Below are positions 3,307 to 19,942 of a DNA stretch of 64,000 nt, piece after piece. The stretch's first letter is position 1, and every line of letters begins with the position of its first letter. The position numbers were made by a program, and so were the translations under genes. The notes under the pieces are model-generated. The model made no database searches, was not told the DNA's origin, and was given only the letters and a program-made list of their open reading frames with translations. Origin of the DNA: Runella sp. MFBS21 (GTDB taxonomy: Bacteria; Bacteroidota; Bacteroidia; Cytophagales; Spirosomataceae); assembly GCF_029433105.1 (NCBI RefSeq), contig NZ_JARNTW010000013.1, forward strand, positions 62,001 to 126,000, written 5' to 3'.

Positions 3307-6300
3307 TGCTGTATATATTTCTCATAATAGCTTCGGGTAGCCTCTATTTCAATCTCATTTAAGTCATACTCTTTAACAAGCGATTGAACGGAAACCCCGC
3401 CTTTAAGATAACTATCTATCTCGCTCGCATAGATACCTTTATCTTTTATAACCGCATGGCCACCGCTGAGTTTTGGATCTATGACAATAGGTACATGAAT
3501 ACCTAACGGGAACATTCTTTGAGCAACTCCAGCATCATCAAACTCAATATTTTTGAAAAATTGTTTGATAAATTCCAAATTATACTGCCCTGTACCATCA
3601 AGAGTTACATCACCGTTTTTAGTTTTAAAAATGAGTGACTTGCCTGCTATTTTTAAATCATCTCGGACATTGTTGGTTGCAAAAGGATATTGCTTTTTGG
3701 TGATTTGCGAGAGTTGAGTGCGTGCTTTCAAAATTTTGGCCATCGAAAATCCATTTTCGCGCAGTGTCCCAATTACTACGATTTCAATCACCCCATAAAA
3801 ACTTACTTTAAGTTGTTCAATATCAGCTCGTTCAGCCCCTGTAAGCCCCTCATAGTTAGCTTGATACAACTCTCTAAACCAACGACGGATTTTCCCTTCG
3901 CTGAGGCGCGTGATTTCGGCCACGTTGCGAATACGATAAATACCGTCGAAAGGAGATTGTTCTACCATTGGTTTAGGTAATTGCTTTTCAGTGGGTAAAA
4001 GTACATCTTTTTTGTTTTCTAAGCGTTCCCATGCTTCCAATATTAAGCGCTGCGTGCGGTATTCGCCATAGCGACGAATGTCTTTGTCCTTCAAAACGCG
4101 AAAGGTTTCGCCAGGGAAGTCTTCCCCCATGACGGATTGCGGGTCTAAGACATAGCGTAACTCTTGTTCAGTAAGACCGTACAAACGGGCATAGTAAGCA
4201 TCCAACTCGGCGCGTAGTTGGGCGCGACGCTCTTCGTGCCAGATAAAAGGAGCCGTATCTTCCTCGGCAAATGCTTCAATGCGCCCCGTGACCCTGCCGT
4301 TTGCCTCCCACTGTTCAGTGATGCTTGCTCGTAGTTCATCATCGGCTTCCAGCCATATTTCTTCAAAAAAGGCTCGTAAATCGGTAGCAGTATAGCTGAG
4401 TTCAAGTACTCGCGGTACAATAAAATTCAGGTCTTGGGTTTGATAAGTTTCAGGAGCAAGTACCGCTAATTGTTTGAATAAAAAGAAATTCAATGTTGTT
4501 CCGCCAATTTTTTGCCTCGATAAATAATCAAATACCATTGAAGTAAAATTGGCAACAAAGGCACATTTCAAAAGAGACAATTGATCATTAATGTACAATA
4601 TCGGGAATTTATTACTAACACCAGATAAAGGTAAAATATGAGAAATTATTGTTCTCTCATTGGTACTGTTTGTAATGTCTCTAAACCCAATTAACCATTG
4701 GGGGCTACGTGCTTTCAGCAAATCAAAGACGATTTCATAGGGCAATTGGTCATACAGTGCTTCTTCAATATCAGCCATTTCCAGCGGATGAAGGGAGAAA
4801 CCAGTATAATTTTTGAGCTGCTTGCGCAGGTCGGTAATGGTAGTTCGGGAGGTATAGGCGAGTGCTTTTTTTAGGTAGGGTTCTGCTTCCTGTAATGGAT
4901 ATTGGGCTGCTAACCACAGGTATAGACTGGCACATAAATCATTCGTTTCTTGGGTTTTATAGGCTCTTTTTATAGGTGTTGGCACTTGCGAAGTTACTAA
5001 ATATACCTCTACTTCTTCAACCCAATACCAAGGAATAGCCACAAAATCGGGGTTGGCGTATTGCTCGGGCGTTGGGTTATTGATTTCATTACGTGCATTT
5101 ACGCCTTCAAACGTGCCGAAACGATGATCATAGTGCCAAATCATCTTCGATTCATAAAGCGGAAAGAATACTTTATCCTCTTTTATCAAGCGGTTGCCCG
5201 TTAATTCAAAACCTTGATTAGTCAATTCTTCCAAGGTTCGGAACAAATGAGAATCGTTTGACATGTGGAACATGGCCGAAAATCGTATTCCCCAAGGGTT
5301 TTCTTCGGGGCTGTTGTCCGTCGCTTCTTTGATGAGAATGGGGGCTTTTCGGTAAATCTTGGCGGTCAGCTCGGCATCTTGGCGGGTACGAAATATCGGG
5401 CAGGTATGGGTGTTGGGGTTTAATCGTAAAAAATCATCACTGGTTAAGGAGAATACGCGTCGTGGATCTTCGAGGTGGGTGGTCCGAGTAGCAAAAAAAG
5501 CAAACTGCATGGCTTGATTAGCAACTTGAGGTTTACCAGAAAGAGTTAAAAGACAAAATTTTTGCCTGCTATCTACATCAGCAAATAACTTTTCTCGGTT
5601 TTCAAAATCGAACAAACTTACCAAACGATTTTCGGTAATGAGATGGCCGAAATAGGCTTTGTTGTTATCATCGGTGGCAATGCCCGTAGGTACAATGACG
5701 GCTGCGCGTCCATTGGGAGCGAGCAAGCGCAGGCATAGTTCGGCAAAAATGGGATAGGTATTGATGTCGCCTACGGCAGTCAGCGGAAAACGCCCGCAAC
5801 CTCGGATAAACTTAGAGTAAGCTTCGGCTGTATGCAGGGCTTTCTGAAACTCACCGTATAAATCAGGGTGCGTAATGGGCAGATTTTTGATGATTTTCTC
5901 GCGGGCTGCTTTGTTGGGCGCATTGGCAATATCGGCGTGGCGCGTGGCAAAATATTCTTGTTCCTGAAGTTTGATGCGCTCCCAAGGTGGATTCCCCATG
6001 ATGATGTCAAAGCCAACCCCTGCCCCTCCCCCTGTAGGGGTGGGGGTATCGGCAAAGATGTCAGGAAATTCGAGTGGATAGTGAAAAAAGCAGTTTTCTT
6101 CCGTAGCAGCAAGGGCTTTACCGACGAGTTGCCCGTGAGAGGCAGCAGGATTAAAAAAGTGATTGCCTAATTTTTCAGAGGTAGGTGCAGCAGGGTCATT
6201 TTCTAAGGTGAAATTATAGTAAAATGCAGAAGTATATATATTTGCAGCAACGTAATCTCTGAACCAATCCGGTTTTTGGCGGAGGGCAAGGTATTTTTGA

Positions 6301-8318
6301 CGAATCTTGTTAATTTCTTCCACGTTATTTTGCTCCACTTGATCTATTTCTCGATATTCCTTAGCAAAATCAAGCTGCTCTAAGTGTTCGTTTGGCGCGG
6401 GCTGAAAGAGTGCGAATTGTCGTTTTTCTCGAAACTGCTTATTAACTTTTTTATAGTTTAATGCAACCTCGCGTACATCGCCTGTAAGGGGATTGAAGGC
6501 ATCATCAGGAATTCCCTTGTCAAGGGTTTTTAGGTCCACAATTCCTACTAAGCTGTTGCCACATTTTATTTTGTGTTCTAAAAAACTAAGTGGCTTTCCA
6601 CTGTTGTGACCTTCTATCCAAAGCGCCAGTCGGCAAAGTTCGACCGCATCGGGATTAAGGTCAATACCATAGATACACCGTTGAATTACGTCACGCAGGG
6701 CTTTACGATAAGCTTTTGGGGCTGGATTGTCTTCATTGGTGCGAACTCTCGCCACATACCAAGCCAAAGTACGGGCCGCCGCCAGCAGGATATGACCTGA
6801 GCCCGCAGCGGTATCGCATATTTTGAGGGAAAGCAGTGCCTCCTCTCGTTCTCTAATAGGTGAAGCTATTTCTAATCGCTGTTCAATGACGGGGAGGAGA
6901 GCCGATTTGATGAGTTCGTTGACCAATTCGGGACGGGTATAATAGGAGCCCGTTGTTTTACGGTCGGTGCCGGCATGAAACACAAAGGGGTGAGCAATTT
7001 CATGTAAGCGTATAACGGGCTGCAAATCAAGCAGGCCTTCATAGACCGAGCCAAGTTCTTCTACGTCTAAGGAAGCGTAATTTATTTTGACCTTTTGACC
7101 ACTGTCTTTGTCATAAAACTCATGCAACGAACCAATACAATCGAGAAGTAATTTGTTGGATATGAGGCTATGGTTTAGTATTCCAAGCGCTGATTCGTTA
7201 AACAAGTCCCCGTCTAAGGGAGCCAATCCCATAGGCAAACCGGCTCCGTCGGCTTCCAACAGTCGGAAAGTAGCCAATAACCCTTGCCATAAGTCCGTGT
7301 AACGCTCTTCGTAGAGGTAGGGATTTTCAGAGAGTTTTCGCAGACGGCTCACACTATAAAAACTGTAGTAAAGTTGGCGGTTTTTGGCCAGCTTGGAGCG
7401 TTCGGCTTCGGCTACTTCGTCGGGTTGGGGATAAATAATGTCGCGCTCTTCGGTCACCATCAAAAACAACATTCGGTACACCAACCGACGCAGTTGACGA
7501 TAGTAATCTTGGGGGCTAAGATGCTGATTCTCCAGTTGCTGGCGTAGTGCGTCATTGGAAGGGTGCAGGATAAAACCGTTCCCAAGAGCCATCAATGAGC
7601 TTTCAACGGCATTACGAAGATTTTCACGAACCCGGTTGCCTTCTTCGAGACTCAATTGATGGTACCGTTCGAGCAGGCAATGCGATGCCTCGGCTTGGGA
7701 GCGAGGCATTCGGGTGGCGTGTAACAGCCTGAAAAGCAAAGCAAACTCGGGATAACGATCTTCGTCCAGCATCTGCCGTAGGTCAAACTCCACGTAGTTG
7801 AGATTGACAATGCGCCCCGAATCGCGCAGCAAACGGAGTTGATAGCCATTGGTTACGATTCCATACAGGTGCTCGGTGAGGTTGAGATACTCTTGCATGA
7901 GGCCGTGCGGGGAAAGTCGCGGACCCGAATCACTCCGTTTTTTGTCCAGCTCATCCGTAAAACCCATGATATGGACAGGCAGTCCGTCCAAGTGGCCAGC
8001 ACGGTGACTGATGGCGTAGCTTCTTTCGTGCAGCATTTCCGCTTTAGCAGGTTCGAGGTCATACCCCAATAGCCGCAGTAACGGTACAATCCAGTCTTTA
8101 CGCGTTTCGGCGGTGCCCGATTGATGGGCAGGTAAGCGTTCTATTTTTCGGTTAAAAATTGTCCAATAATCTTTAGCCATTGACCACGCAAAGGCAATTT
8201 CGTCCCTTACTTTTTGCTGGGGTGTAAGGCCAAAGTCGGTAGGTTGCTGACCTTCAAACTGATTTTGTTCGAGTTTGGAGACGAGTTCGGCAGAGAGGAT
8301 ATTTCCGTGTAAGTGCAT
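3303..8318 (-). CDS. Giant Eco57I/DrmMI-type adenine-specific DNA methyltransferase with C-terminal DUF433-like domain
   Basis: This is a large N6-adenine methyltransferase of the Eco57I/DISARM DrmMI type, expected to mark host DNA in a defence system. Counting from the ATG at 8318 (about 1671 residues), the AdoMet motif DTAAGSGH lies near residue 502 and the catalytic NPPW near 776. A target-recognition and helical region follows. The last ~220 residues resemble a DUF433 antitoxin: a MerR-like YRIRNVAEITRLSEGKIRRW, then IDPKLSGGHAVIKDKGI, then a YDLNEIEIEATRSYYEKY helix. The longer in-frame start at 8369 would place 17 codons inside a perfect 22-bp hairpin, so I prefer the internal Met. A Gly/Pro/Thr-rich insert (TPTPTGGGAGVG) encoded by a GC-rich repeat sits just before NPPW. 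The stop overlaps the next gene by ATGA. Confidence 0.88.
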   Translation of the reverse strand: MHLHGNILSAELVSKLEQNQFEGQQPTDFGLTPQQKVRDEIAFAWSMAKDYWTIFNRKIERLPAHQSGTAETRKDWIVPLLRLLGYDLEPAKAEMLHERSYAISHRAGHLDGLPVHIMGFTDELDKKRSDSGPRLSPHGLMQEYLNLTEHLYGIVTNGYQLRLLRDSGRIVNLNYVEFDLRQMLDEDRYPEFALLFRLLHATRMPRSQAEASHCLLERYHQLSLEEGNRVRENLRNAVESSLMALGNGFILHPSNDALRQQLENQHLSPQDYYRQLRRLVYRMLFLMVTEERDIIYPQPDEVAEAERSKLAKNRQLYYSFYSVSRLRKLSENPYLYEERYTDLWQGLLATFRLLEADGAGLPMGLAPLDGDLFNESALGILNHSLISNKLLLDCIGSLHEFYDKDSGQKVKINYASLDVEELGSVYEGLLDLQPVIRLHEIAHPFVFHAGTDRKTTGSYYTRPELVNELIKSALLPVIEQRLEIASPIREREEALLSLKICDTAAGSGHILLAAARTLAWYVARVRTNEDNPAPKAYRKALRDVIQRCIYGIDLNPDAVELCRLALWIEGHNSGKPLSFLEHKIKCGNSLVGIVDLKTLDKGIPDDAFNPLTGDVREVALNYKKVNKQFREKRQFALFQPAPNEHLEQLDFAKEYREIDQVEQNNVEEINKIRQKYLALRQKPDWFRDYVAANIYTSAFYYNFTLENDPAAPTSEKLGNHFFNPAASHGQLVGKALAATEENCFFHYPLEFPDIFADTPTPTGGGAGVGFDIIMGNPPWERIKLQEQEYFATRHADIANAPNKAAREKIIKNLPITHPDLYGEFQKALHTAEAYSKFIRGCGRFPLTAVGDINTYPIFAELCLRLLAPNGRAAVIVPTGIATDDNNKAYFGHLITENRLVSLFDFENREKLFADVDSRQKFCLLTLSGKPQVANQAMQFAFFATRTTHLEDPRRVFSLTSDDFLRLNPNTHTCPIFRTRQDAELTAKIYRKAPILIKEATDNSPEENPWGIRFSAMFHMSNDSHLFRTLEELTNQGFELTGNRLIKEDKVFFPLYESKMIWHYDHRFGTFEGVNARNEINNPTPEQYANPDFVAIPWYWVEEVEVYLVTSQVPTPIKRAYKTQETNDLCASLYLWLAAQYPLQEAEPYLKKALAYTSRTTITDLRKQLKNYTGFSLHPLEMADIEEALYDQLPYEIVFDLLKARSPQWLIGFRDITNSTNERTIISHILPLSGVSNKFPILYINDQLSLLKCAFVANFTSMVFDYLSRQKIGGTTLNFFLFKQLAVLAPETYQTQDLNFIVPRVLELSYTATDLRAFFEEIWLEADDELRASITEQWEANGRVTGRIEAFAEEDTAPFIWHEERRAQLRAELDAYYARLYGLTEQELRYVLDPQSVMGEDFPGETFRVLKDKDIRRYGEYRTQRLILEAWERLENKKDVLLPTEKQLPKPMVEQSPFDGIYRIRNVAEITRLSEGKIRRWFRELYQANYEGLTGAERADIEQLKVSFYGVIEIVVIGTLRENGFSMAKILKARTQLSQITKKQYPFATNNVRDDLKIAGKSLIFKTKNGDVTLDGTGQYNLEFIKQFFKNIEFDDAGVAQRMFPLGIHVPIVIDPKLSGGHAVIKDKGIYASEIDSYLKGGVSVQSLVKEYDLNEIEIEATRSYYEKYIQQ
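6015..6050. repeat. GC-rich REP-like palindrome inside the methyltransferase gene
   Basis: A C-run/G-run imperfect palindrome (CCCCTCCCCCTG, then TAGGGGTGGGGG) lies in the coding sequence just upstream of the NPPW codons. It is read in frame as TPTPTGGGAGVG. The opposite frame reads like the PPPLQGEGQG peptides that REP-like repeats produce in Bacteroidota genomes. The base composition differs sharply from the surrounding gene. It looks like an inserted mobile palindrome that kept the frame; this is inference from composition. Confidence 0.55.
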
Positions 8319-8331
8319 GAGTATTTTTGTT

Positions 8332-8378
8332 TCCTCCCCCTTGCTCTTCTCCATTTTGGAGAAGAGCAAGGGGGAGGA
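8332..8378. repeat. Perfect 22-bp inverted repeat (3-nt loop) between helicase and methyltransferase genes
   Basis: The arms 8332-8353 and 8357-8378 are exact reverse complements around TTT. Each arm runs from a CCTCCCCC block through TTGCTCTTCTCC. The hairpin fills the gap between the DrmD-like gene and the methyltransferase ATG at 8318. It could attenuate or stabilise the operon mRNA, or simply be a dispersed REP-like palindrome. It has no following T-run on the minus strand, so it is not a classical terminator. Confidence 0.85.
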
Positions 8379-8387
8379 ATAAGTGTG

Positions 8388-11222
8388 TTATAGTTCGGGT
8401 AATAGGATATAAACTCCTATGACGTCCATGGGTAGGACTGGCTCAACAGGTCGAAATTTATTGCCCAAGCCGACGGCTCGTCGGAAGCGTTCGTGGGCTT
8501 CTACCAAAGCATTGGCTCTGGTGATGGCAATGGGGTCGGTGATTTGGTTGTACAGTGTTGGTTTGTTTATCCATTCCAATTCTTCATTGAGCCAGTACAT
8601 TTGTTCACCCAACTCCACGTTTTCAGCGGCTTTTGTTTCCATAAGAAGGCGATTTGCGATAGGTTCTTCTAAAAACAATTGCTCAGAAACATCCCCTTCA
8701 TAACCCCATACAAGGAGTTCTTCGGCAACGAGTTCCTGCTTTTCGGTCACTTCCGAAATTACATTTCTTACCCTAAACTGGACCAGTGTCGTTTTATTCG
8801 TGACTGCTCCTGTTCTAACCACGGAGGCGCGTGCCACGCCCGTTTGGTAGCGTTTTTCGAGCGCATCGGTGAGTAAATATTGACAGAGTTGCTCCACAAA
8901 CAGGTGATTACGGCCTAAATAATGATAGCCTTGCGGAGTAGGTGAGATAAAAGATATGGATACTTTTTCCTGATCAGAAAGCAATCCCCGCAAACGAGCA
9001 GGTATATTTTGCGTAAAAATCAGAAAACCTTCAGGTTGTACTTTGACCTGTACTCCCAAGAAACGTAATGTTTCTATTACGAAATTTTGAACGGCTTCCA
9101 CGTTTCCAATAGCCTGATCTACTTCTTTCAAATCATCCTCAATTTCCTGCGCTTTGATGGCATTTTGGGCAAAAATACTGCGAGAGGCTTTCTCCAGTTT
9201 CGTTGCTTTTTGGTAAGCATCCGACACCTTGAGAAGATTCTGCTGATACGTGTCATCACTTCCAAAATCCAGTGCCATTTGAGTACCATGATGCCTGGTA
9301 TCATTGAGAAGAACTTTATTCAAAACTGCATCCATGATGGAACGGCTATCTTCGGGAAACGGTACGCTGATACCCGTTGCCTTGCGAATTTCTTTGGCTT
9401 TACGGAGTAATACTTCCAATACAATGCTGTCGATGGGGTTGTCGCTTCCGTAGAGCAGCATTACAAAGACCTCTTTGGTCAATTGCCCGAAACGGTCAAT
9501 TCGTCCTTCCCGTTGCTCCAGCCGATTAGGATTCCAAGGCAAGTCATAGTGGAGAATGGCACTGAAATACGCTTGTAAATTAACCCCTTCGCTAAGACAG
9601 TCCGTTGCGATGAGCACACGTAAAGGGGCTTTGCCTATTTCATCAATTCGTTCGCGGCGTTGCTCATCGGCCAATTCACTCGTGATTACTTCCACCTCAA
9701 TGTGAGGGAATTGCCGTTTAAGTTCCGCAGTTAGTACTTTACCCAAGTAATTGGCAGTGGCAATATAGCGACAGAAAACAATGGGATTGATTCCCTTTTT
9801 GAGCCAGTTGGACAGTTGTTCAAGGGTAGTTTGGGCCTTCGTATCCTTGCTTAGACTCATCAGGTTAGCACATTCATTTGCTAATGATTTAAAGGATGTT
9901 ACCAAGCCCTCTACAGAACGCTGCGAGTATTCAGTCACCTGCACGGGCGCAACATCGCCGGCATAAAAGTCGGCATCCAATACAGGGTTTTCGTCGGTAA
10001 ATACTTCAGTAAAGTCATTGTCGTCCCCCAATTTTCGAGAAAACATTTCGTAACCTACCGCAGGGCTGGACATCACACCTCGTAACAATGCCAAGGCTGC
10101 AAAGTAATTACCTTTGATTTGAATATCGCTACTACCCATTTGGGTGATTTTTCGGGCTACTTTCAGTACTTTCTCAAAAAAAACTGCATAAGGCTTCGAA
10201 AGAGCATAAGCCAATTCGGCAGATATTCGGTCGGGGAAAGGGGTGTCTTCCCCCAGCCATTTTTCAACGTCAATACGTCGCCTTTGTACAAAATGGCGGG
10301 CAATTTCTTTACGTTTGGTTTCATCGGCTTCGGCGACGTGGGTATTTTTGAAAGAAGATTTTAACAGCCCCAATAACGATTGAAACTCTTCCTGCTTTCC
10401 GCTGTGGGGGGTAGCGGTAAGCAAAAGCAAGTGTTGTTTTTGCTTTTGTGAAATTTCGTGTAACAAATGGAATCGTTGTTGCTGACTTGGGGCCGTTGCT
10501 CCTGCTGGCATTGCGCAGGTATGGACTTCATCCACGATGATAAACTCGGGAATATGGTCTAAAAAAATCCGTTTGTGGCTTTCGGCTTTGACATATTCTA
10601 TGGAAATGACCTGAAACGGAAACTTTCGATATAAAATTTCGTCGTTACGGAGTTGGCGTTCCAACTTGGCAATGGTTCCTGAACGAATGATGATAGCTTC
10701 AATTCCGAACTTATTTTTAAGCTCTTCCTGCCACTGTTCGCACAGGTGCGGCAAGCACAAAATGGCGAAGCGTTTGATTTCGCCTCGATCCAGTAGCTCC
10801 CGGGCAATCAATAATGCTTCAATAGTTTTGCCTACCCCCACGTCGTCAGCAATGAGTAAGCGTACGGTATCTTGTCGCAGTGCCATAATCAGCGGTACCA
10901 TCTGATAGGAACGGGGACGAAAAGAAAGTCGTCCTAAACTGCGAAACGGTCCCGATGCCGAGCGAAACGAAAGGCGATTGGCATTGTAGAGCAGTTTGGC
11001 GGATTCAAAGTTTCCTAAATCCTCGTTGGAAGGTTTAGGAAAATCAGTAGGTTCGACTTTTTCAAGCAGTTTGGCTTGTAGTGGTAAAAAGATACCCGTT
11101 ATTTCTTCCTCATTACCACCAAGCGGCTTGAGCAGCAAAACGTCTTCTGAATCATGCGGTTGCACGACCCAATCGCGTTGTCGAAAACGTACTAAATTAC
11201 CTGGTTTGAACGTGAGTTTCAT
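8388..11222 (-). CDS. SNF2-family helicase of the DISARM DrmD type
   Basis: The 944-residue protein opens with a small beta-rich region (FKPGNLVRFRQRDWVV) and then a two-lobe SF2/SNF2 ATPase. Walker A is DDVGVGKT at 126-133, preceded by SYQMVPLIMAL (Q-motif-like). The Walker B box is IIVDEVH near 225-231, motif III is LTATPHSG, and the second lobe ends with EQREGRIDRFGQ (motif VI). The phrase LCLPHLCEQWQEELKNKFGI with the CAMP box after DEVH matches what I know of DISARM class 1 DrmD. It is expected to translocate on DNA as part of a restriction complex in the cytoplasm. Its ATG overlaps the stop of the upstream helicase gene by ATGA. A bacterial HepA/RapA relative is the alternative, but the neighbours favour defence. 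Confidence 0.85.
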   Translation of the reverse strand: MKLTFKPGNLVRFRQRDWVVQPHDSEDVLLLKPLGGNEEEITGIFLPLQAKLLEKVEPTDFPKPSNEDLGNFESAKLLYNANRLSFRSASGPFRSLGRLSFRPRSYQMVPLIMALRQDTVRLLIADDVGVGKTIEALLIARELLDRGEIKRFAILCLPHLCEQWQEELKNKFGIEAIIIRSGTIAKLERQLRNDEILYRKFPFQVISIEYVKAESHKRIFLDHIPEFIIVDEVHTCAMPAGATAPSQQQRFHLLHEISQKQKQHLLLLTATPHSGKQEEFQSLLGLLKSSFKNTHVAEADETKRKEIARHFVQRRRIDVEKWLGEDTPFPDRISAELAYALSKPYAVFFEKVLKVARKITQMGSSDIQIKGNYFAALALLRGVMSSPAVGYEMFSRKLGDDNDFTEVFTDENPVLDADFYAGDVAPVQVTEYSQRSVEGLVTSFKSLANECANLMSLSKDTKAQTTLEQLSNWLKKGINPIVFCRYIATANYLGKVLTAELKRQFPHIEVEVITSELADEQRRERIDEIGKAPLRVLIATDCLSEGVNLQAYFSAILHYDLPWNPNRLEQREGRIDRFGQLTKEVFVMLLYGSDNPIDSIVLEVLLRKAKEIRKATGISVPFPEDSRSIMDAVLNKVLLNDTRHHGTQMALDFGSDDTYQQNLLKVSDAYQKATKLEKASRSIFAQNAIKAQEIEDDLKEVDQAIGNVEAVQNFVIETLRFLGVQVKVQPEGFLIFTQNIPARLRGLLSDQEKVSISFISPTPQGYHYLGRNHLFVEQLCQYLLTDALEKRYQTGVARASVVRTGAVTNKTTLVQFRVRNVISEVTEKQELVAEELLVWGYEGDVSEQLFLEEPIANRLLMETKAAENVELGEQMYWLNEELEWINKPTLYNQITDPIAITRANALVEAHERFRRAVGLGNKFRPVEPVLPMDVIGVYILLPEL

Positions 11223-14200
11223 CGTATCTTTTTGAAAATATCAGGGCGTTTGGCCACAAATTGGGGAAGCGGTTCGCTGTAATACCAGACTAAAATCTGA
11301 TAGCCTGCTTTTTTGAGGGCTGCTCGTTTTTGAGTATCGTCTTCATTTACCTGCGGACTGTCATGTACGCTGCCATCGCAAAAAATACAGATATTGGGTT
11401 TATATAAAAAATCAGGACGTACGTACATGTTAGGAATGGAGGGTTGAGCTACATCAGGGAGACGTAAGTTATTGGTATATAAAAATTTCAAAAATACCTG
11501 TTCGGTCGAAGAGTTTGGGTCGCGGGCAGCTTCGAGTGTATTGTATTGGGCATCATAGTTGTCGTAAGTGCGTGACGTTTGGAGTTCAATGGTACAGTTC
11601 ATTAATCGCTCCAAAGCATCTTTTATTTCCCAACGGTCTATTTCCTTGTGGTCCCGCTGGTTATAATAAGATAGTAAGTCGTCGTAAGTGGCAGCGGGTG
11701 AATTTTGAGCCTCCATTAAGACGCCCTCTTTCATAAAACAGATATTGAATGCTTCTTTAACAATTTCCTGAAACATTTCTACTCGCTCTACTAACTGCGA
11801 CAATACCCCTAAGCTGCCCTGCGCCGATTCATACAGTAAAATATTGGGCTGTTCGGTTTCACCCATCAACATTACGCCAATTTCGTTTGATTCTACTTGA
11901 AATACGTTTTCAATGGCTCGTTTCAAGGCGTATTGAAGAGAAATTACTCCTTTTTTATTAAGTGCAAGAGCTTGGACAGGTTGAATATAAATAGCATTGG
12001 CGGTGTCAGAAGTAAAGATTTTTACGTCCTTATATTCATCGTTATTTGCCGGATTGGTTTCTTCATCGTCCCCTCTCCAATAGCCTGACTTTAATTCTAA
12101 GCGAAAGCCCTCTTCCTGTTTAATGCGCCATTTATAATTGACATGAACGATGCGGGCCGTAGGCATTGAATGGATTCTAAGTAAAACGGTATCATTGTAC
12201 TTTACATGAGCGTCCACCGTTTTTTCAAAACCGTCTTCCACATAAAAATACGTTTTGATGTCAAACCCGCGAGAGGTGCGTTCTTCTTCTTCACAATTAA
12301 TTCGCTGAATTTCTCGAGCACGGGTTTCAGCCATTTCAATGATCGGAACGACAATTTTTCGCTCCGCGTCATTTCCCAGAGGCTTTTTTACAATGGGGTC
12401 AGTATCCCAACTCAATTGATTATCCATCATAAAATACCCAGTCAATCGGCTTACTTTGGCCGTTTTGAGTTTATTTTCAGCATCAGGAATGATGATTTGA
12501 TTAATACGGTACTTGGAACCATCGTGGTAAATGATGTTTTGAGGGCCAAATTCCCGTAAAGCTAAGAAACGAGGGCGTGATACGTATTCCCCTCCTTTGT
12601 CGCTGTTTTCCATAAAGGAGCGAATTGGCAAGCGGGTAAAGTTATAGCCGGGTAAAAAGCCTTCTGAGGCAAAATACCGATAGGGATAAAATTCGGAGAG
12701 TTGACGAATACCTCCCTGATTTTCGTTGAGCAACAGATCGCGTTGCTGTTTACCCTGACGGATGTCAGTTTCAGCACTCTTACGTTCTCGGCTTTCACGC
12801 CCGTAAATTGGGTTCTCAATAATTGCATTTCCCCGCACAATTTGGTCCTGCGCCGACTTATAGAGCGTTCGCCAGCGGTTAAGACATTTATCAAGGTCAT
12901 TAGTAAAACTGTCGACTTTGGTTTTCACCCATTCCTTCTGAAACCATTTGTAGTTATGGTCATTCAGGCGTTGCTGAATGACTGGATCTTCAATAAGCTT
13001 ATAAAAAGTCGTAATAATTCGTTTTTTTTCCCCTTCTGAGAGAGCAAAAGCGATTTTTATATCTTCTTTGAGAGGAACGCCCGCCGGAATGGCATCAATC
13101 TCCAGAAAATCTCGGATGGTTCTTTCAAAAGCATGAGACGATTTGACCATGATGTAGCAAGCGTGCAGGTGGTTTTCCCAAAGCTCTTCATTAATTAGGT
13201 CAATGCGCGGCGCCTGAACATTGCCAGCCACCATATCGGCAGCATGATCGAAGTAATGGCGGTCGTGGGGGGAATGATTGGAACAATAAGTAAAAACCAT
13301 CGCGGCTTGTCCTCCCCGACCAGCGCGCCCGCTTCGTTGGGCATAATTGGCAGGGGTAGGCGGCACATTACGCATGTGTACGACGCTGAGTTCAGAAATA
13401 TCAATACCGAGTTCCATGGTGGGTGAGCAAAACAATAGGCTAATTTTGCCATCACGGAAAAGTTGCTCACGTTCTTTACGAGTCTCGGAACTAATTTGGC
13501 CAGTATGTTCTTTTCCCTCAATGGTAGTTTCAGCTAACCTTCGGGCGTAGAATTGTTGAAAATATAAATTGGGCTTTAAGCTTCTGGATTTATAACTTCG
13601 GCTCTTGATTTCGTCAAGAATTACTGTTTGACTATCTCCCAATTCCCAGGAAATCATATCCACCCGAATTTGATAGATTAATATTTCCTGATGACTATCT
13701 GATTTAACCTTTGTTGGCTTCAACCAACCTGCATCGTGCATAAAGTTCAGTAGTAAATAAACCGTTTCCTGATAGATACTCTCCTCGTGCAGGTCTTCTC
13801 CGAATGATTGGGCTAAGGGAATCAGCCATTTCGCAAAACCACTTCGTCGTCCTATACTATGGGTGTATTTGTTATTGTTAGGGGCTAAATTTTCGACCCG
13901 AATAAAGGATGGACTTTCAATTTTTTCGTTTTTATCTAAAGTCCAAGGGGCTTTCAGTTTTTCAGCAAAAATGCGAGTATTCTGGTCAATAACATTTTCC
14001 TGTAGGAGCGAATATTCGAGAGCGTATTGTTTACGAAAAAAATCAAGAATCTGATGAACGAACGTAATACGATTAGAAATAGGCATTTTGAAAAGTAGAG
14101 GAACTCGTTGACAGAGTTCGTCGCTGACCATTGTTTCTTTTAATTGTTTGTAAGTTACTTTTAGCAGCGCACACTGCTCTAAGTTGGGCATAATGACTCG

Positions 14201-16336
14201 CCAACTTCGGCGCAAATCGTGTAAAATACGATACATCAAATAATCCCGAAAGGCATCGGAATTGTCTTTAGCAGGCCCAGGGAATGCACTGGGATATTGG
14301 GCATATTGCTCTTGTGGTATTTTCAGGCTACTAAATACTTCAAATGCAATCGTTGAATAATCTAAACTTCGATTCTTGGTAAGTGCGTGAAAAATAGAGG
14401 ATCTTAACTGCCCAACTCGAATAAAATCATTGAAATGCCCTGCCTGAAGCGATGCATCTTGCCGGTTGTCGGTAAAGCTCAATAATTTACTTTCCTTGAC
14501 AGTTAATCCAGTGGATTTTAATTGATTCAATACTGCCAGAGAAAGAACGGTAGTAGCGGTACTTCTCCCTTCACCACCCAAACCAATTAATTTGGTTTGC
14601 TCGGAGCTGCGGGTGTCGAAAAATGTACCCGAAGTAGGGTCAAAAAGCAAAGGAAACGATATAAACCATCCTTCAAACGAAAGAGGTTCGACGAAAGAAT
14701 AACTGCCATTGGCATCAAAATAAATCTTTTTGGGAAGTCGGTCACGGTATTCTTTAATGGGTTTGAGTCCTTCTTTTTTTGTTTCTCTAAACCAAGCTTT
14801 AGGTAGAGAATCTTTATCACGTTCATAGTCCCAAATCATCTCCTCTTCGGGATAGTCTAAAAAGATGTACCCGTTGAGCTTGCCTGATTCATCGTCAGCG
14901 GTATCCCAAAAGGTACGAGGCTCAACGCTGCCAGCCTCCAAAGTTACACAGATGAACTCATGACCAGAATTGCGGCTAAATGCCACTGGATACAATTTCT
15001 TGGAGTTATCCTGTATTGAGTACCGTGCCGTATCCAGTGAGATTTCCCGGGTAGCTATTGATTCTAATGTTACGTAAACGGAACCCGTTTGAGCCACAAA
15101 TTGATGGATTCTGTATGGTAAATAATTTTGTTTTTTTTGAGGATTTGCATTTAGTGTATTTGCCCAAGTAAGTATGAGAAGCAGAGCATTTGTACATATC
15201 TGTTCATCCAGATAGACATAAGCCGCCAATTCTTTAGCTATTTGGGTAAGTGTTTGTGGTTTCTTCCTCACCAAAACATCATCTTTTTCTTCCAAAGCAA
15301 TTTGTTTTTCGAGCCAGATTGCCAAAGGGTTATTTCTGAATAATTTGGCATCACCATCTACATTAATGGGTTCAAGAACAACTTGTCTTACTTTAATTTC
15401 TGAGTATTCCTGATTGGATAGGCTTCTGCGAAGTTTCTCAATAACCACTTGGTTTGGATTGAACTCTTTTCCAAAAATGATGGTAGCTACTTCGGCAACT
15501 TTCTGTTTTTGTTGAATCAGAGTGGTATCTTTCGCGGAAATCATGGTGGCAGAAGTACCAATGGGTATCAAATCATTGGTGGCCAAAGCTTTGATACGGC
15601 GAATCAGGAATGCTACATCAGCGCCTTGCCGACCTCGGTAGGTATGTAATTCGTCAAAAACAATGAATTTAAGTTTTTCTTTGATTGCTTCTCGGAAGCT
15701 GCTCTCCCCACTTCGAGTCATAATGAGTTCAAGCATCATGTAGTTAGTCAAAAGGATATGCGGTGGGTTGTTCTTAAGTTCTTCACGCTCTTCCTCTTTT
15801 TCCTGTCCAGTATATTGTCCAAAGCGAATAGGAAATGATTGGCCTGACTTCTCATAGTTCTCCTGGTACTTTTCAATTTCTTTGTATTGGGAATTAATTA
15901 GTGCGTTCATCGGATAAACTATAATCGCGCGTATCCCTTCTGTAATTTTACTTTGCAGGATGTCATTGAAGATAGTAGCTATGTAAGTCAACGATTTGCC
16001 TGACCCTGTACCCGAGGTGACGATAAACCCTTCGCCTTTAGTGCCGATTTCAATCGCATCAATTTGATGTTGATACAATTCCCATGTGCGCCCCGAATCA
16101 CTTGAAAAAATTCTTTTCATGTAAGGGTGAAACACAGATTTTTGGATCAGCATCTCCACTGTTGTTCCCTTTTCAAAAGAAGGATTGAACTGAATAAGTG
16201 GCTCTGGCCAGAGTTTACCGCTGTTTAGGCCGGTATTGACTTTTGATTCAATGTGCGGGTCTTTAATTGAAATAAAACTATTGATGTATGAGCTGTATTC
16301 ATCAATAATTTTTCGGTGTGTGTCAAAGACATTCAT
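11219..16336 (-). CDS. Large DEAD/DEAH-box helicase with DUF1998 region and C-terminal Vsr/DUF559-like nuclease domain
   Basis: The 1705-residue protein is the first gene of the operon. It has Walker A TSGTGSGKS at 107-115, Walker B FIVFDELHTYRGRQGAD, motif III GTSATM, a second helicase lobe with LLFCSPTMELGIDIS, and motif VI NYAQRSGRAGRGG. A DUF1998/MZB-like segment follows (ILLYESAQGSLGVLSQL). The last ~70 residues read PDFLYKPNICIFCDGSVHD and continue with TQKRAALKKAGYQILVWYY, the layout of DUF559/Vsr-type PD-(D/E)XK nucleases. DISARM splits helicase and DUF1998 into DrmA and DrmB, whereas Druantia DruE joins them; this protein could be a DrmA-DrmB fusion or a DruE-like variant. It probably unwinds and cuts invading DNA, which is inference. 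Confidence 0.85.
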   Translation of the reverse strand: MNVFDTHRKIIDEYSSYINSFISIKDPHIESKVNTGLNSGKLWPEPLIQFNPSFEKGTTVEMLIQKSVFHPYMKRIFSSDSGRTWELYQHQIDAIEIGTKGEGFIVTSGTGSGKSLTYIATIFNDILQSKITEGIRAIIVYPMNALINSQYKEIEKYQENYEKSGQSFPIRFGQYTGQEKEEEREELKNNPPHILLTNYMMLELIMTRSGESSFREAIKEKLKFIVFDELHTYRGRQGADVAFLIRRIKALATNDLIPIGTSATMISAKDTTLIQQKQKVAEVATIIFGKEFNPNQVVIEKLRRSLSNQEYSEIKVRQVVLEPINVDGDAKLFRNNPLAIWLEKQIALEEKDDVLVRKKPQTLTQIAKELAAYVYLDEQICTNALLLILTWANTLNANPQKKQNYLPYRIHQFVAQTGSVYVTLESIATREISLDTARYSIQDNSKKLYPVAFSRNSGHEFICVTLEAGSVEPRTFWDTADDESGKLNGYIFLDYPEEEMIWDYERDKDSLPKAWFRETKKEGLKPIKEYRDRLPKKIYFDANGSYSFVEPLSFEGWFISFPLLFDPTSGTFFDTRSSEQTKLIGLGGEGRSTATTVLSLAVLNQLKSTGLTVKESKLLSFTDNRQDASLQAGHFNDFIRVGQLRSSIFHALTKNRSLDYSTIAFEVFSSLKIPQEQYAQYPSAFPGPAKDNSDAFRDYLMYRILHDLRRSWRVIMPNLEQCALLKVTYKQLKETMVSDELCQRVPLLFKMPISNRITFVHQILDFFRKQYALEYSLLQENVIDQNTRIFAEKLKAPWTLDKNEKIESPSFIRVENLAPNNNKYTHSIGRRSGFAKWLIPLAQSFGEDLHEESIYQETVYLLLNFMHDAGWLKPTKVKSDSHQEILIYQIRVDMISWELGDSQTVILDEIKSRSYKSRSLKPNLYFQQFYARRLAETTIEGKEHTGQISSETRKEREQLFRDGKISLLFCSPTMELGIDISELSVVHMRNVPPTPANYAQRSGRAGRGGQAAMVFTYCSNHSPHDRHYFDHAADMVAGNVQAPRIDLINEELWENHLHACYIMVKSSHAFERTIRDFLEIDAIPAGVPLKEDIKIAFALSEGEKKRIITTFYKLIEDPVIQQRLNDHNYKWFQKEWVKTKVDSFTNDLDKCLNRWRTLYKSAQDQIVRGNAIIENPIYGRESRERKSAETDIRQGKQQRDLLLNENQGGIRQLSEFYPYRYFASEGFLPGYNFTRLPIRSFMENSDKGGEYVSRPRFLALREFGPQNIIYHDGSKYRINQIIIPDAENKLKTAKVSRLTGYFMMDNQLSWDTDPIVKKPLGNDAERKIVVPIIEMAETRAREIQRINCEEEERTSRGFDIKTYFYVEDGFEKTVDAHVKYNDTVLLRIHSMPTARIVHVNYKWRIKQEEGFRLELKSGYWRGDDEETNPANNDEYKDVKIFTSDTANAIYIQPVQALALNKKGVISLQYALKRAIENVFQVESNEIGVMLMGETEQPNILLYESAQGSLGVLSQLVERVEMFQEIVKEAFNICFMKEGVLMEAQNSPAATYDDLLSYYNQRDHKEIDRWEIKDALERLMNCTIELQTSRTYDNYDAQYNTLEAARDPNSSTEQVFLKFLYTNNLRLPDVAQPSIPNMYVRPDFLYKPNICIFCDGSVHDSPQVNEDDTQKRAALKKAGYQILVWYYSEPLPQFVAKRPDIFKKIR

Positions 16337-16508: not shown

Positions 16509-17531
16509 TTAAAACATTAGTTCTTCATACTTCTTTGCCCCTTCAACCAAACGTTTATGGATTTGCTTACGGAGGGCATCGGGGGCGAGTACTTTCACAA
16601 TTTCTCCAAACCCTAAGATTTCCTTTTCTAATTCAAAATTCAGCTGCACAAAAAGCTCAATGATAATTCCCTCTTGATGACGCTCTAAGGTCACTTGTGA
16701 GCTATGAAGGGGTTTGGTTTCGAGATAAGGCGCATGAGCGGCGGCGACCCAGAGCCGCACCTTTCGGGGTCTTTGGTTGGGCGCCACTGTCACCCCAATC
16801 ACATCGCGGTAGTATTCTTCTGGATTGAGGTGCTCGTTGGGGCGATAGGCTGATTCGTTGCTAGGGGTTATATCAATCATGCGGTCGATGGCTAGATTTA
16901 AAATATCCTTTTGGTTGTTTTTGACTCCTACCGCAAACCAACGATTCTTAAATTCTTTGAGCCACCATACATGAAAAATAAACTTCTGTGGTGCTCTGGC
17001 CTTAAAAGATTGATAAGTAAGTGATATAGGTTTTTGTTGGATTATGACTTGATACAATGTATCCAAAAATACCAGCCCTTTCAGGTTTTCATTTTTTTCA
17101 AAATCAATAACCGTACGCTGATGATGCTTGGCAGCATATACATGGTCTTCTAATTTTTGAATTACATCCGTAAGTTGTTGAAAATGAGAAAAACCTTTGA
17201 ATTGGCGTAATACCTCTACGGCCTCATTCATACGTAGCAGGTCTTGGTCAGTTAGAGGGATTTGGGTAATGCTGTAATTTGGGTCTTCGTAAGTATAGTA
17301 CTTTTTGTCTACTACAATAATCGGCGCAAAGTAGCCTAATTTGTCACTCCGCATCATTTGCAGGTCGGCTTGGATAGTGCGGCGACTGATGCCTTTATCC
17401 ATACCTTCATATTCATACATGGTTTCGGAGACTTTGTCTATAAGGTCTTCGAGTGTCCATTTGCGGTGGCGATTGCGCAAACAGGCGTCTATCGTTTTGT
17501 ATCGAATAAGGGCGTTGCGGTTGACAGGCAT
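16509..17531 (-). CDS. WYL-domain transcriptional regulator
   Basis: The 340-residue protein has an N-terminal winged helix-turn-helix (about 5-75; SRRTIQADLQMMRSDKLGY), a WYL ligand-binding domain (about 155-235; PISLTYQSFKA, then WWLKEFKNRWFAVG) and a C-terminal WCX-type extension (VRLWVAAAHAPYL). WYL proteins bind nucleic-acid or nucleotide ligands and control phage-defence or DNA/RNA-damage genes. This subtype (MPVNRNALIRYKTID start) is common in Bacteroidota, and I associate it with RNA-repair clusters. It is divergent from the slipin across 573 bp carrying a Y-RNA-like element, so it probably controls both directions. It also lies 172 bp upstream of the defence operon on the same strand and could be co-transcribed with it. 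Which of the two modules it serves is open. Confidence 0.88.
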   Translation of the reverse strand: MPVNRNALIRYKTIDACLRNRHRKWTLEDLIDKVSETMYEYEGMDKGISRRTIQADLQMMRSDKLGYFAPIIVVDKKYYTYEDPNYSITQIPLTDQDLLRMNEAVEVLRQFKGFSHFQQLTDVIQKLEDHVYAAKHHQRTVIDFEKNENLKGLVFLDTLYQVIIQQKPISLTYQSFKARAPQKFIFHVWWLKEFKNRWFAVGVKNNQKDILNLAIDRMIDITPSNESAYRPNEHLNPEEYYRDVIGVTVAPNQRPRKVRLWVAAAHAPYLETKPLHSSQVTLERHQEGIIIELFVQLNFELEKEILGFGEIVKVLAPDALRKQIHKRLVEGAKKYEELMF

Positions 17532-17611
17532 GTGATTGTGATGTTTTTCTCAAAATTTCTGAAAATAATTTCAACTACGCAAAAAGACTGCGCAGACGCC
17601 GCTCACCTTTG

Positions 17612-17636
17612 CATCGTCAAACAAGGGATGACGATG
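17612..17636. promoter_or_regulatory. Perfect 8-bp inverted repeat, possible WYL operator or terminator
   Basis: The arms CATCGTCA and TGACGATG are separated by nine bases and followed by GTTTTA. The site lies between the WYL gene start and the Y-RNA-like element. It could be an operator for the divergent WYL regulator, a terminator-like hairpin, or the 5' part of the structured RNA. Confidence 0.4.
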
Positions 17637-17830
17637 GTTTTATAGAGCCACGTAGTACCGACGAAGTATCGCACGGTATACTGTCACAACCATCTCTATT
17701 TGATTTTTCTGTGGGTCGTGGGTTCGAATCCCGCCTTGGCGAAAGCCATGTAACTCAGTTGGGTAGAGTAACAGTCTCGGTAGAAGAAGGCCACTTCGTT
17801 AAAAATAGGTCACCTGATTCCATCAAGGCA
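17637..17830 (+). ncRNA. Bacterial Y RNA-like noncoding RNA (YrlA-type permuted tRNA mimic)
   Basis: A tRNA core is written in permuted order. CTGT at 17709-17712 pairs with ACAG at 17771-17774 as an anticodon-stem-like helix. Next comes a five-base variable loop GGGTC, then a T-arm at 17718-17734 (GTGGG, loop TTCGAAT, CCCGC). An acceptor-like stem at 17735-17750 (CTTGGC / GCCATG, one T-T mismatch) is closed by a GAAA tetraloop. After linker TA comes a D-arm at 17753-17769 (ACTC, loop AGTTGGGTA, GAGT) and then A at position 26. This is the architecture of the tRNA-like module of bacterial Y RNAs, which tether effectors to Ro60. Flanking bases can form a stem, but I cannot settle which pairing. 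No Ro60 (TROVE) gene is in the window. Boundaries are approximate. Confidence 0.7.
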
Positions 17831-17865
17831 AAAAATACTTCGGTGGGGGTGTTGAAATTCAATAC

Positions 17866-17920
17866 CAACCTACGATTCACACAAAGCCTGAAAGCGAGCA
17901 GATACCGCACTCGTAGGTTG
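17866..17920. other. 10-bp inverted repeat with 35-nt loop in the WYL-slipin intergenic region
   Basis: The arms CAACCTACGA and TCGTAGGTTG are exact reverse complements. The loop contains GCCTGAAAGCGAGC. It follows the Y-RNA-like core by about 90 bases and may be a second domain of the same transcript, a separate small RNA, or a leader structure of the slipin mRNA. No open reading frame of credible length covers it. Confidence 0.5.
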
Positions 17921-17928
17921 TATCTCTT

Positions 17929-17997
17929 TTTGAAGGGGCATTTTTGGTGGCTCAAACAGCGAGTGAGCTGTTTGAAAAGCCAAAAACAAACTTCAAA
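17929..17997. other. Long imperfect hairpin upstream of slipin
   Basis: Three nested pairings stack: TTTGAAG with CTTCAAA at the outside, TTTTTGG with CCAAAAA in the middle, and CAAACAGC with GCTGTTTG around a GAGTGA loop at the tip. The bulges between them are small. The element ends about 107 bp before the slipin ATG and is not followed by a T-run, so a structured RNA or leader is more likely than a terminator. Confidence 0.55.
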
Positions 17998-18104
17998 CAC
18001 AGTTGCAAAATAAGAATGCTTAAGCCAGCTTCCGCCTTGGGCGAATGAGGTATTTTTTGTCATAGGAATAAAACAAGAACAGCAATTATTAAACATACAA
18101 AACC

Positions 18105-19205
18105 ATGAAATTTGTCAACATCAACGCGTATCAAGTAGGGCTGGTATTTCGTAACGAAACCTATCTGAAGGCCCTCACAGAAGGGGTTCATTTCGTTGGC
18201 CCTTTCCAAACTGTAAAAGTGTATGACATTACCAAACCTTTTACAGCCCCTTACTCGCTCGATATATTGTTGGCAGACAAGGTTTTGGCTGATTTGTTGG
18301 AGGTGATTGATGTGAAAGACCACGAAATTGTACTTCAGTATGAAAACCAAGTACTCAAAACCGTTTTGAAACCTGGTCGTCATGCTTTTTGGAAAAACAT
18401 GGTCAACTATCGCTATGTCAGAGCTGACTTGAGCAAAGTAGAGATTACGGAAGATATTGATTTGGTGTCACTTACTTCTAAGGAAGTATTGGTGTATATG
18501 CGTTCTTATACGGTTGAATCTTACGAAAAAGGGCTACTTTTTGTGAATGGTAAATACCAAAAAGTGCTTGAGGCAGGTACTTACTATTGGTGGAGAAACA
18601 ATCTATCGGTACATATTTCTAAAGTGGACATTCGTCAGCTGCAATTAGAAATTGCGGGGCAAGAAATCTTGACCAAAGACAAGGCTACTTTGCGAATTAA
18701 CTTTTACGTTCAGTACAAAGTGACGGATATAATGAAAGCGTTACTCGAAAATAAAGACATCGATAAACAATTGTATATTTTGATGCAGTTGGGGTTACGA
18801 GAGTACATTGGTACGCTTACTTTGGATGAGTTGCTGGAAAAAAAAGAAGGCATTTCAAAATTTATCTTGGACGCCATTGCCGAAAAAGCAGGGCAGTTAG
18901 GGGTAGCATTGGTGAACTGTGGTATCAGGGATGTGATTTTGCCTGGCGATATGAAAGAAATCATGAACCGCGTGCTTATCGCTGAAAAAACAGCGCAGGC
19001 CAACATCATCATGCGCCGCGAAGAAACGGCTTCGATGCGTAGCCTTCTCAACACCGCCAAACTCATGGAGGAAAACGAAATGCTATTCCGCCTCAAAGAA
19101 ATGGAATACGTGGAAAAAATTGCCGATAAAATCAATACCATTTCTATTTCGGGAGGTGGGCAAGTACTCGACCAATTGAAGCAAATTTTCGGTACGGCTA
19201 AATAA
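18105..19205 (+). CDS. Slipin family protein (SPFH/band-7 domain)
   Basis: The 366-residue protein has an SPFH core at about 130-310. Recognisable parts are the strands FVNGKYQKVLEAGTYYW and VDIRQLQLEIAGQEILTKD, then LRINFYVQYKV, and a helical ILPGDMKEIMNRVLIAEKTA segment typical of slipin/stomatin proteins. Unlike standard slipins it lacks an obvious N-terminal membrane anchor and begins with MKFVNINAYQVGLVFRN, as in the soluble slipins found beside RtcB, Y RNA and polynucleotide kinase genes. SPFH proteins oligomerise as scaffolds. In RNA-repair operons their exact job is unknown. The gene is followed by a terminator-like hairpin and then a broken kinase/phosphatase gene. The family call is firm; the RNA-repair link comes from context. 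Confidence 0.88.
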   Translation: MKFVNINAYQVGLVFRNETYLKALTEGVHFVGPFQTVKVYDITKPFTAPYSLDILLADKVLADLLEVIDVKDHEIVLQYENQVLKTVLKPGRHAFWKNMVNYRYVRADLSKVEITEDIDLVSLTSKEVLVYMRSYTVESYEKGLLFVNGKYQKVLEAGTYYWWRNNLSVHISKVDIRQLQLEIAGQEILTKDKATLRINFYVQYKVTDIMKALLENKDIDKQLYILMQLGLREYIGTLTLDELLEKKEGISKFILDAIAEKAGQLGVALVNCGIRDVILPGDMKEIMNRVLIAEKTAQANIIMRREETASMRSLLNTAKLMEENEMLFRLKEMEYVEKIADKINTISISGGGQVLDQLKQIFGTAK

Positions 19206-19260: not shown

Positions 19261-19942
19261 ATGAAAAAAGTAATTATACTTCGGGGATTGCCAGCAAGTG
19301 GCAAATCTACCTTTTGAGCGTATTGGCGCGGTGGTAGAAAGGTACAACCAAGAATCAGGCGAAAACGTAAAAATAGAAATGAAAGAACTAAATACTTCTT
19401 TGGAGGAGTGTTTGGCAAGAGATGAAGTGAGAGAAAAAAAAGTAGGACGGGAGGTAATCATGAAAATGTACAAAACGCATCAATTAGGCAACGAGCGGGG
19501 ACCGCATTATCAAGCGCAAGATGCTACTTTGCCAGCGGCAATTATTTGTGATTTGGACGGGACATTGGCGCTCATTAGGCATCGAAACCCCTACAATGCA
19601 ATGGCCTGTGAACTAGACGAACTCAATGAGCCTATTGCTAATATGCTACATACTTATCACAAGTTGGGGGTAAAAATTATATTAATGTCGGGCCGGGAAG
19701 AGAAGGCTCGTCAGCCTACGTTAAATTGGCTTTCGTATAATCACATCCCCTTTGAAGCACTCTACATGCGACCTCAGGATGACAACCGGCAGGATGCCGT
19801 TGTGAAGAAAGAACTTTATCAAACTCACATCCAAGGCAAATATTTTGTGCAGTTTGTGCTTGATGACCGCAATCAAGTAGTGGATTTGTGGCGATTAGAA
19901 CTAGGGCTTCCGTGTTTGCAAGTTAATTATGGAGATTTTTGA
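19261..19942 (+). pseudogene. Polynucleotide kinase/phosphatase (T4 Pnkp-like) with broken kinase domain
   Basis: The ATG at 19261 opens a typical 5'-kinase start, RGLPASGKSTF (Walker A), but a TGA follows at 19315-19317. In another frame, from a GTG at 19298, the protein resumes at FERIGAVVERYNQ. It continues with the kinase lid region (LEECLARDEVREKKVG) and then a complete HAD phosphatase domain: CDLDGTL, the SGRE box, and LDDRNQVVDLWR. The kinase part normally spans about 150 residues, so some 60 residues between P-loop and lid are missing along with the frame. This looks like an internal deletion. The GTG-initiated 214-residue remnant could still be a working 3'-phosphatase. In intact systems the enzyme heals cleaved RNA ends before ligation; no RNA ligase is encoded nearby. 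Confidence 0.8.

Follow-up and report, generated by a model that had tools for sequence, protein, structure and literature searches.

A probable non-coding RNA with a permuted tRNA-like module, conserved upstream of slipin genes in Bacteroidota

The 64,000-nt stretch of Runella sp. MFBS21 DNA analysed here (the window) carries on its plus strand an RNA-like stretch located between the divergently transcribed gene of a WYL/WCX transcription regulator, which is likely a repressor, and a gene encoding slipin, a membrane-scaffold protein of the SPFH/Band 7 type (Table 1). A palindrome separates the WYL gene from the RNA, and the slipin gene is followed by one encoding a polynucleotide kinase-type phosphatase domain (HAD_PNKP). 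On the strand of the WYL gene, positions 3303-16336 of the window encode a large protein with Eco57I and N6_Mtase methylase matches, a DrmD/DpdE-like SNF2 helicase and a DruE-like helicase. These genes look like an anti-phage-like cluster inserted next to the repair locus, because none of the three was found in the corresponding loci of R. zeae and R. aurantiaca; in these two species, the gene found at 319-1224 of the window lies within 0.1-1.2 kb of the WYL gene.

Table 1. Coordinates, in the window, of the RNA, its parts and the flanking genes.
Feature	Position	Strand	Evidence or remark
WYL/WCX transcription regulator, divergent from the RNA	16509..17531	-	Pfam WCX E=7.8e-11, WYL E=6.5e-9
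Palindrome CTACGCA-N7-TGCGCAG	17575..17595	.	Between the WYL gene and the RNA
Conserved 5' segment	17625..17655	+	Ends GCCACGTAGT; in relatives ACCTGATG..GCC.CATAGT; alignments of orthologous loci
5' hairpin TACCG..CGGTA, inner CGA/TCG	17656..17678	+	Pairing in 10 sequences
Permuted tRNA-like module	17709..17774	+	Order CTGT-GGGTC-[T-arm]-[capped hairpin, GAAA]-TA-[D-arm]-A-ACAG; Rfam YrlA match and covariation
CTGT, counterpart of the anticodon-stem 3' strand	17709..17712	+	Pairs with ACAG 17771-17774
GGGTC, between CTGT and T-arm	17713-17717	+	
T-arm, loop TTCGAAT	17718..17734	+	YrlA match, module covariation
Capped acceptor-like hairpin, GAAA loop	17735..17750	+	One U.U mismatch in six-position stem
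TA linker	17751-17752	+	
D-arm, loop AGTTGGGTA	17753..17769	+	YrlA match, module covariation
H-type pseudoknot	17783..17811	+	Stem 1 GAAG 17783-17786/CTTC 17794-17797; stem 2 GGCC 17789-17792/GGTC 17808-17811; A-rich loop 3
Conserved 3' element AAAGCCTGAAAGCG..GATACCGC	17883..17908	+	Alignment of orthologous loci
Slipin (SPFH/Band 7) gene	18105..19205	+	Pfam Band_7 E=1.6e-33
Polynucleotide kinase-type phosphatase domain (HAD_PNKP)	19298..19942	+	Pfam E=4.6e-50

The module at the centre of this interval (module 1) has an open anticodon loop, while a small loop seals its acceptor end; judging from the order of its parts, this layout would resemble that of a tRNA with a nick in the anticodon loop. 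The initial annotation had described a permuted tRNA core of the bacterial Y RNA (YrlA) design, and every element of this core lies where it had been placed. The design, too, was borne out by the covariance search that the annotation had proposed: in an Rfam search of 581 bases, the YrlA model (RF02553) matched positions 17710-17773 of the plus strand (44.3 bits, E=1.3e-8; model positions 23-85 of 114), and against the whole genome the same match had an E-value of 4.1e-8. The match is restricted to the tRNA-like module and stays below the gathering score of 69, which is why a default Rfam scan of the window listed nothing. The remaining three matches in the 581-base search, from whose listing one lower-scoring overlapping match of the same clan was omitted, were weak (a 10.2-bit match to a tmRNA T-arm and two with E >2). 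ARAGORN found zero tRNA genes in the window, and the stretch has neither a linear cloverleaf with an anticodon loop and a free 3' end nor an Rfam tRNA match at the gathering score. An exact-pattern search for this particular module hit one of 99 genomes, that of the window itself. A coding reading of a mechanically called open reading frame (17609-18013) was rejected, as four relatives show 2-11 stops in each frame and indels occur as well.

Conserved structure also occurs on both sides of the module. Among ten sequences, the outer helix of the 5' hairpin is 100% paired and the inner one 96.7%, with both-side changes at four of the eight pairs, and a regular expression for this hairpin fitted 36 of 68 wider loci. 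On the 3' side, stem 2 of the pseudoknot is present in all 55 loci that have stem 1 and the A-rich tract (33 of the 88 loci have no candidate), as compared with a mean of 23.4 and a maximum of 32 in 1000 trials in which tails were swapped among loci; the descriptor fixes stem 1 and the A-rich tract and, where a locus offers several candidates, retains the one bearing stem 2. The second stems themselves vary (GACC/GGTC, GAGC/GCTC, CATCG/TGATG and GCACAT/ATGTGC). An earlier, loose pseudoknot finder was dropped, since it reached a score of at least 24 in 59 real and 27 shuffled loci of 90 each and picked another site in locus L001. The conserved element further downstream may be a 3' domain of the RNA or belong to the slipin leader, and 26 of 87 loci contain the motif [GA]ATACCG, where 3.5 would be expected. 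The span that had originally been assigned to the RNA, 17637..17830, holds approximately: conservation starts 5' of 17637, and some of it reaches ~17908. By its position, the palindrome is a candidate for a WYL operator or a promoter element. Its pattern, CTRCGCAAAAANNNTGCGYA, has a single match in the 7.9-Mb genome (in the window, 1 against 0.03 expected), and 45 of 88 loci, every one of L001-L010 among them, have the looser CGCA-N7-TGCG upstream of slipin, compared with 9 of 80 letter-shuffled loci that contain it anywhere.

The folding energy of the 194-nt stretch 17637-17830 does not improve on that of shuffled sequences (z=0.21) and is thus uninformative; the evidence therefore consists of conservation and covariation, according to which the interval between the WYL gene and slipin probably encodes a conserved, non-coding RNA. 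In an alignment of 47 relatives (A2), the 18 pairs of the module are 98.8% paired, a value that is partly due to construction because parsing required paired arms, and both-side changes occur at 15 pairs and in 227 cells. The 15 pairs were reached by 3 of 500 shuffles and the 227 cells, like the 98.8% pairing, by none of 500, and sliding the partners lowered pairing to 43-55%. The rows of A2 are L001, L003, L004 and 44 of 62 parsed loci, i.e., those 46 whose acceptor parts measure 14-17 nt, minus L108 and L145, which were removed by hand. The closing stem takes 17 different strand pairs in the 62 parsed loci, a parse in which its pairing was required, though the search that placed L001-L005 scored it without requiring it; among them are CTGT/ACAG, TTGT/ACAA, CTAT/ATAG, CTAC/GTAG, TCGT/ACGA and GCTG/CAGC. 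An alignment of ten rows (A3) that also covers the 5' hairpin and stem 1 of the pseudoknot has 29 pairs, 96.9% paired, a level attained by 0 of 500 shuffles; both-side changes are found at 11 pairs and in 32 cells, and no shuffle reaches either count. These ten rows (L001-L007, L009, L139 and L157; L008 and L010 omitted) were picked by hand, and several are closely related. Within A3 the closing stem is invariant, stem 1 of the pseudoknot lacks both-side changes, and 67 of 500 shuffles attained the observed number of further pair types. The compensatory changes that the initial annotation had suggested looking for in homologous intergenic regions are thus present in both alignments.

Conservation upstream of slipin in Bacteroidota covers the module, the 5' hairpin and the 3' pseudoknot. 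A search of 59 genomes detected full-length slipin orthologues (at least 56% identity) in ten, one of them the window's own, and nine of these ten have a YrlA-type match just upstream of the gene. A slipin-alignment scan of 84,980 species returned at least 556 relatives; the 80 best, all from named lineages of Bacteroidota, were used. The module lies upstream of slipin, on the same strand, in 84 of 88 non-duplicate slipin loci: 62 that were fully parsed, L001-L005, for which one acceptor mismatch was allowed, and 17 with a match of at least 39 bits to a covariance model (L082 and L095, duplicates of L007 and L002, are omitted from most counts). The exceptions are L092 (226 nt of upstream DNA searched), L093 and L110, which have no module, and L010, which has a degenerate copy only. 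In L092, L093 and L110, where no mimic module was found, the same palindrome lies 166-171 bp before slipin and a T-arm ~55-60 bp before it; in L110 this T-arm belongs to a complete tRNA-Tyr. In a class-wide sample of 395 genomes, slipin (E<=1e-60) occurs in 26, and 23 of these have a module match up to ~1.2 kb upstream, as read by eye from the match lists. The other three comprise two with no module match (G016 and G137) and one, G319, with two matches ranking below those listed.

These counts are confined to matches near slipin because the module covariance model of this analysis (R1), in whose training set the window was included (78.9 bits), is unspecific. At E<=1e-9 it matches 180 of the 395 genomes, and junctions between tandem tRNA genes score 61-63 bits (L185, L189 and, for tandem tRNA-Ala genes, L180 and L186); in L194 (61.2 bits), where ARAGORN calls two tRNAs 'Stop (tta)', the match connects the last tRNA called with one more tRNA-like copy outside the ARAGORN calls. 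The 17 loci that R1 contributed all have their match away from ARAGORN tRNAs. Weak YrlA matches likewise carry little weight, since at E<=1 they are obtained in 11 of 14 control genomes as well as in 92 of the 99 relatives' genomes. The independent YrlA match in the window and the covariation are untouched by the tRNA-junction scores.

Genes of RNA repair are frequent at slipin loci. Counted through one named representative per protein cluster, the families found in the 80 loci include RtcB (48), WYL (28), RNaseH_like (20), TPR (18) and AAA (16), followed by the RNA-repair nucleotidyltransferase RlaP (12), TROVE (6), RF-1 domain (5) and AAA_33 (5); a WYL homologue was found in 36 of 90 loci searched. 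The genome of the window has RtcB genes on other contigs. The RNA-repair neighbourhood proposed initially therefore stands for the locus type, whereas its PNKP member is not generally conserved: in the DNA searched (1.5 kb downstream for L003-L010), HAD_PNKP homologues occur elsewhere only in R. zeae, adjacent to slipin, and in R. aurantiaca, 2.6 kb past it, and PNKP was rejected as a general partner. One locus, L193 of genome G355, combines at its positions 4614-9318 a WYL gene, tRNA-Phe, two mimic modules, a gene for a 214-aa protein with no Pfam match, and RtcB (Pfam E=1.1e-34); there is no slipin within the 14 kb read and none at E<=1e-60 genome-wide. Because the RNA stands there beside WYL and RtcB without slipin, slipin is possibly not its sole partner.

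Many relatives have a more elaborate RNA, with a second T-arm/hairpin/D-arm unit (module 2) and, behind it, one or two anticodon-like arms whose loops measure 7 nt. The anticodon arm that comes after module 2 is intact. In some mimics, the hairpin after the T-arm has an anticodon-like loop (CTGTCAC, CTTGAAA or CTTTTAA in L010, L102, L125, L128, L149 and L152). Additionally, ARAGORN recognises tRNA genes in 61 of the 80 slipin loci, with a maximum of 20 in one locus; most lie upstream and on the same strand as slipin (308 vs 22 distinct sequences). The Runella window has module 1 only, with neither an anticodon arm nor a tRNA array. The array tRNAs are unusual at position 37. All 73 distinct non-array tRNAs of two genomes obey the rule of G if position 36 is G and A otherwise, whereas array tRNAs (slipin loci L082-L161) obey it in 173 of 308 cases and break it in 135. 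The exceptions cluster by anticodon (GTG 19/19, TGG 12/12, GTC 19/21, TAG 12/13, GAA 22/29) and are absent from TTT (28), GTA (25) and GTT (16). Within the same genome, for example, the housekeeping Phe loop CTGAAAA corresponds to TTGAAGC in the array, and the Asp loop CTGTCAC to TTGTCTA or CTGTCTC. The mimic arms tend to keep the rule: 69 of 88 mimic hairpins do so, against 173 of 308 array tRNAs (P=1.8e-4), and the difference grows to 28 of 32 against 24 of 154 (Fisher P=6e-15) when only anticodon classes with deviating array copies are considered, a restriction chosen after the unrestricted result and applied to arms from a loose descriptor, some of the 32 of which may be chance hairpins.

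On balance, we lean towards the view that this RNA, of which ~190 nt or more are conserved, belongs to a slipin-type RNA-repair locus, in which it would be a WYL-controlled scaffold or bait in a response to tRNA damage, reduced in Runella. The WYL protein would repress the operon by binding the palindrome; upon sensing of tRNA or RNA damage, the RNA and slipin would be made together, the RNA being the cognate partner of slipin and possibly anchoring slipin assemblies, together with enzymes for end healing or ligation (RtcB, PNKP-phosphatase), on damaged tRNA. Alternatively, the RNA could draw tRNA-acting enzymes to itself, a bait role that fits the full-length relatives because these show anticodon arms with housekeeping-like loops. 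The Runella copy has no such arms and would therefore be left with the role that its nicked-tRNA layout could play as a scaffold or decoy. More tentatively, the loci can be seen as one possible form of a tRNA-damage island of Bacteroidota, with the mimic RNA, an array of altered tRNAs, slipin and repair enzymes under a single WYL-type switch. In such an island, the permuted, nicked-looking body of the mimic with its susceptible housekeeping-like anticodon arms could act as bait or sensor; the spare tRNAs, which cover many isoacceptors and are systematically changed at position 37, could pass unrecognised by anticodon nucleases; and slipin and RtcB/PNKP-type enzymes could assemble on the mimic and repair cut RNAs. 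The window would then be a stripped-down form consisting of the switch, the nicked-tRNA module, slipin and the phosphatase domain.

Bacterial Y RNAs are described as partners of Ro60, and the YrlA module match invites the reading that this is a true Y RNA whose Ro60 is encoded elsewhere or was recently lost. We disfavour this reading as improbable. The initial annotation had noted that no Ro60 gene is visible, and indeed TROVE (Ro60) has no match near the locus or anywhere in the window's genome (rated 100% complete), nor in any of ten slipin relatives. In the class-wide sample it occurs in 17 of 395 genomes and together with slipin in two (G138 and G288), which, with the TROVE gene in six of the 80 slipin loci, speaks for this reading; in one of them (G138, locus L192), Ro60, tRNAs, module-type matches of 70.5, 53.6 and 51.8 bits and slipin lie in a single cluster. 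However, Ro60 is absent from the other 24 of the 26 slipin genomes, the YrlA match ends at the module, and no long basal stem of the kind that binds Ro60/Rsr is present in that match or in the MFE fold of 17637-17830, the flanks being occupied by the 5' hairpin and the 3' pseudoknot instead. The YrlA gathering score is reached by none of the 99 relatives' genomes, Ro60-bearing ones included. The module model matches 19 of 20 TROVE loci at E<=0.01 (26 to 67 bits), and thus the tRNA part is common to Ro60-type and slipin-type loci. Since the linkage to slipin holds where Ro60 is missing, the RNA is best classified as a relative or analogue of the Y RNA mimic that is linked to slipin, rather than as a Ro60 Y RNA; what had been suggested to be a Y RNA without its usual partner nearby is instead one of a set of RNAs tied to slipin. 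A further reading regards the module as what is left of a tandem tRNA array, with a T-arm and a D-arm contributed by two successive tRNAs, together with pairing acceptor remnants. The fit of tandem junctions to the module model means that permuted order alone is no proof of a dedicated RNA, and the real tRNA arrays upstream in many relatives make such an array a plausible origin of the module; indeed, a tandem tRNA junction is a possible and simple origin of the permuted order and of Y RNA tRNA mimicry. As a full account, decay is nevertheless disfavoured to the point of being very improbable, because the closing stem, the capped hairpin, the 5' hairpin and the pseudoknot have been kept by compensatory change across distant genera; the window, moreover, contains no complete tRNA.

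Two other alternatives concern the function of the RNA. tRNA-like leaders set expression elsewhere, and the module could be a cis-acting part of the slipin 5' UTR that is read or cut by tRNA enzymes (a nuclease, RtcB or modification enzymes) and thereby sets slipin expression. This is unlikely in our judgement, although the placement of the module directly upstream of slipin on the same strand and the extension of conservation to ~200 nt before the start codon both agree with it. Against it, the module of L193 precedes a different gene and RtcB, and modules of the same design stand beside Ro60 genes, where YrlA is described, in the accessible part of the source, as a separate RNA (PMC8394870). 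Rather doubtful, too, is that the RNA serves as bait or sensor for an anticodon nuclease, the mimic offering susceptible arms while translation passes to array tRNAs whose loops are altered. The contrast at position 37 between mimic arms and array tRNAs supports this possibility, yet it shrinks once the choice of anticodon classes is lifted, and the window possesses neither the arm nor the array on which it depends; we also know of no nuclease associated with slipin/mimic loci.

To our knowledge, the role of the slipin family in RNA repair is unexplained. The retention of a Y-RNA-type tRNA mimic beside slipin in many genera without Ro60 makes the binding of tRNA-shaped RNA by slipin directly testable. 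Likewise, the spare arrays with altered loops suggest that bacteria themselves may use the trick proposed for phage tRNAs, namely escape from anticodon nucleases.

Burroughs and Aravind reportedly described, in 2016, SPFH/Band-7 modules with 'a novel tRNA-like molecule' in RNA-repair clusters. The slipin-linked RNA is very probably of the same kind; the reported feature, a tRNA-like RNA beside an SPFH/Band-7 gene in repair clusters, is present here. The literature searched, with subscription papers mostly outside it, yielded no description of a permuted slipin-linked RNA or of changed tRNA arrays, which is no proof of novelty.

Among known RNAs, YrlA (RF02553) shares the permuted module of T-arm, capped acceptor-like hairpin and D-arm, as well as RtcB-type repair genes nearby. 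In the accessible parts of the sources, YrlA is characterised by an end stem that binds Ro60/Rsr, a length of 90-150 nt, the tethering of PNPase and its use as a substrate by tRNA-modifying enzymes (PMC8394870; PMC7790460), and TROVE proteins with a tRNA-like partner are mentioned in the context of RNA repair (PMC7824862, accessible part). The stretch conserved here extends over ~190 nt or more (17625-17815), a span of conservation and not a transcript length. In contrast to YrlA, the conserved neighbour here is slipin and not Ro60, the flanks form a 5' hairpin and a 3' pseudoknot where no long basal stem was detected, and relatives often have two modules and free anticodon arms.

The trn operon of Anabaena offers a second parallel, in which one repressor controls a silent tRNA array together with RtcB and a slipin: deletion of TrcR raises a slipin gene and rtcB, TrcR also represses the tRNA array, and the array is induced by translational stress. 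It differs in that the repressor is a ribbon-helix-helix protein rather than a WYL protein and the tRNA array is plasmid-borne, apart from the rest, and the available portion of the article mentions no tRNA mimic (PMC10272220). Finally, phage tRNAs, whose anticodon loops are unlike those of the host and have been proposed to resist anticodon nucleases, resemble the array tRNAs in their altered anticodon loops (PMC10264068, accessible part), whereas the slipin-side arrays are part of bacterial genomes, where they occur only in the window's relatives.
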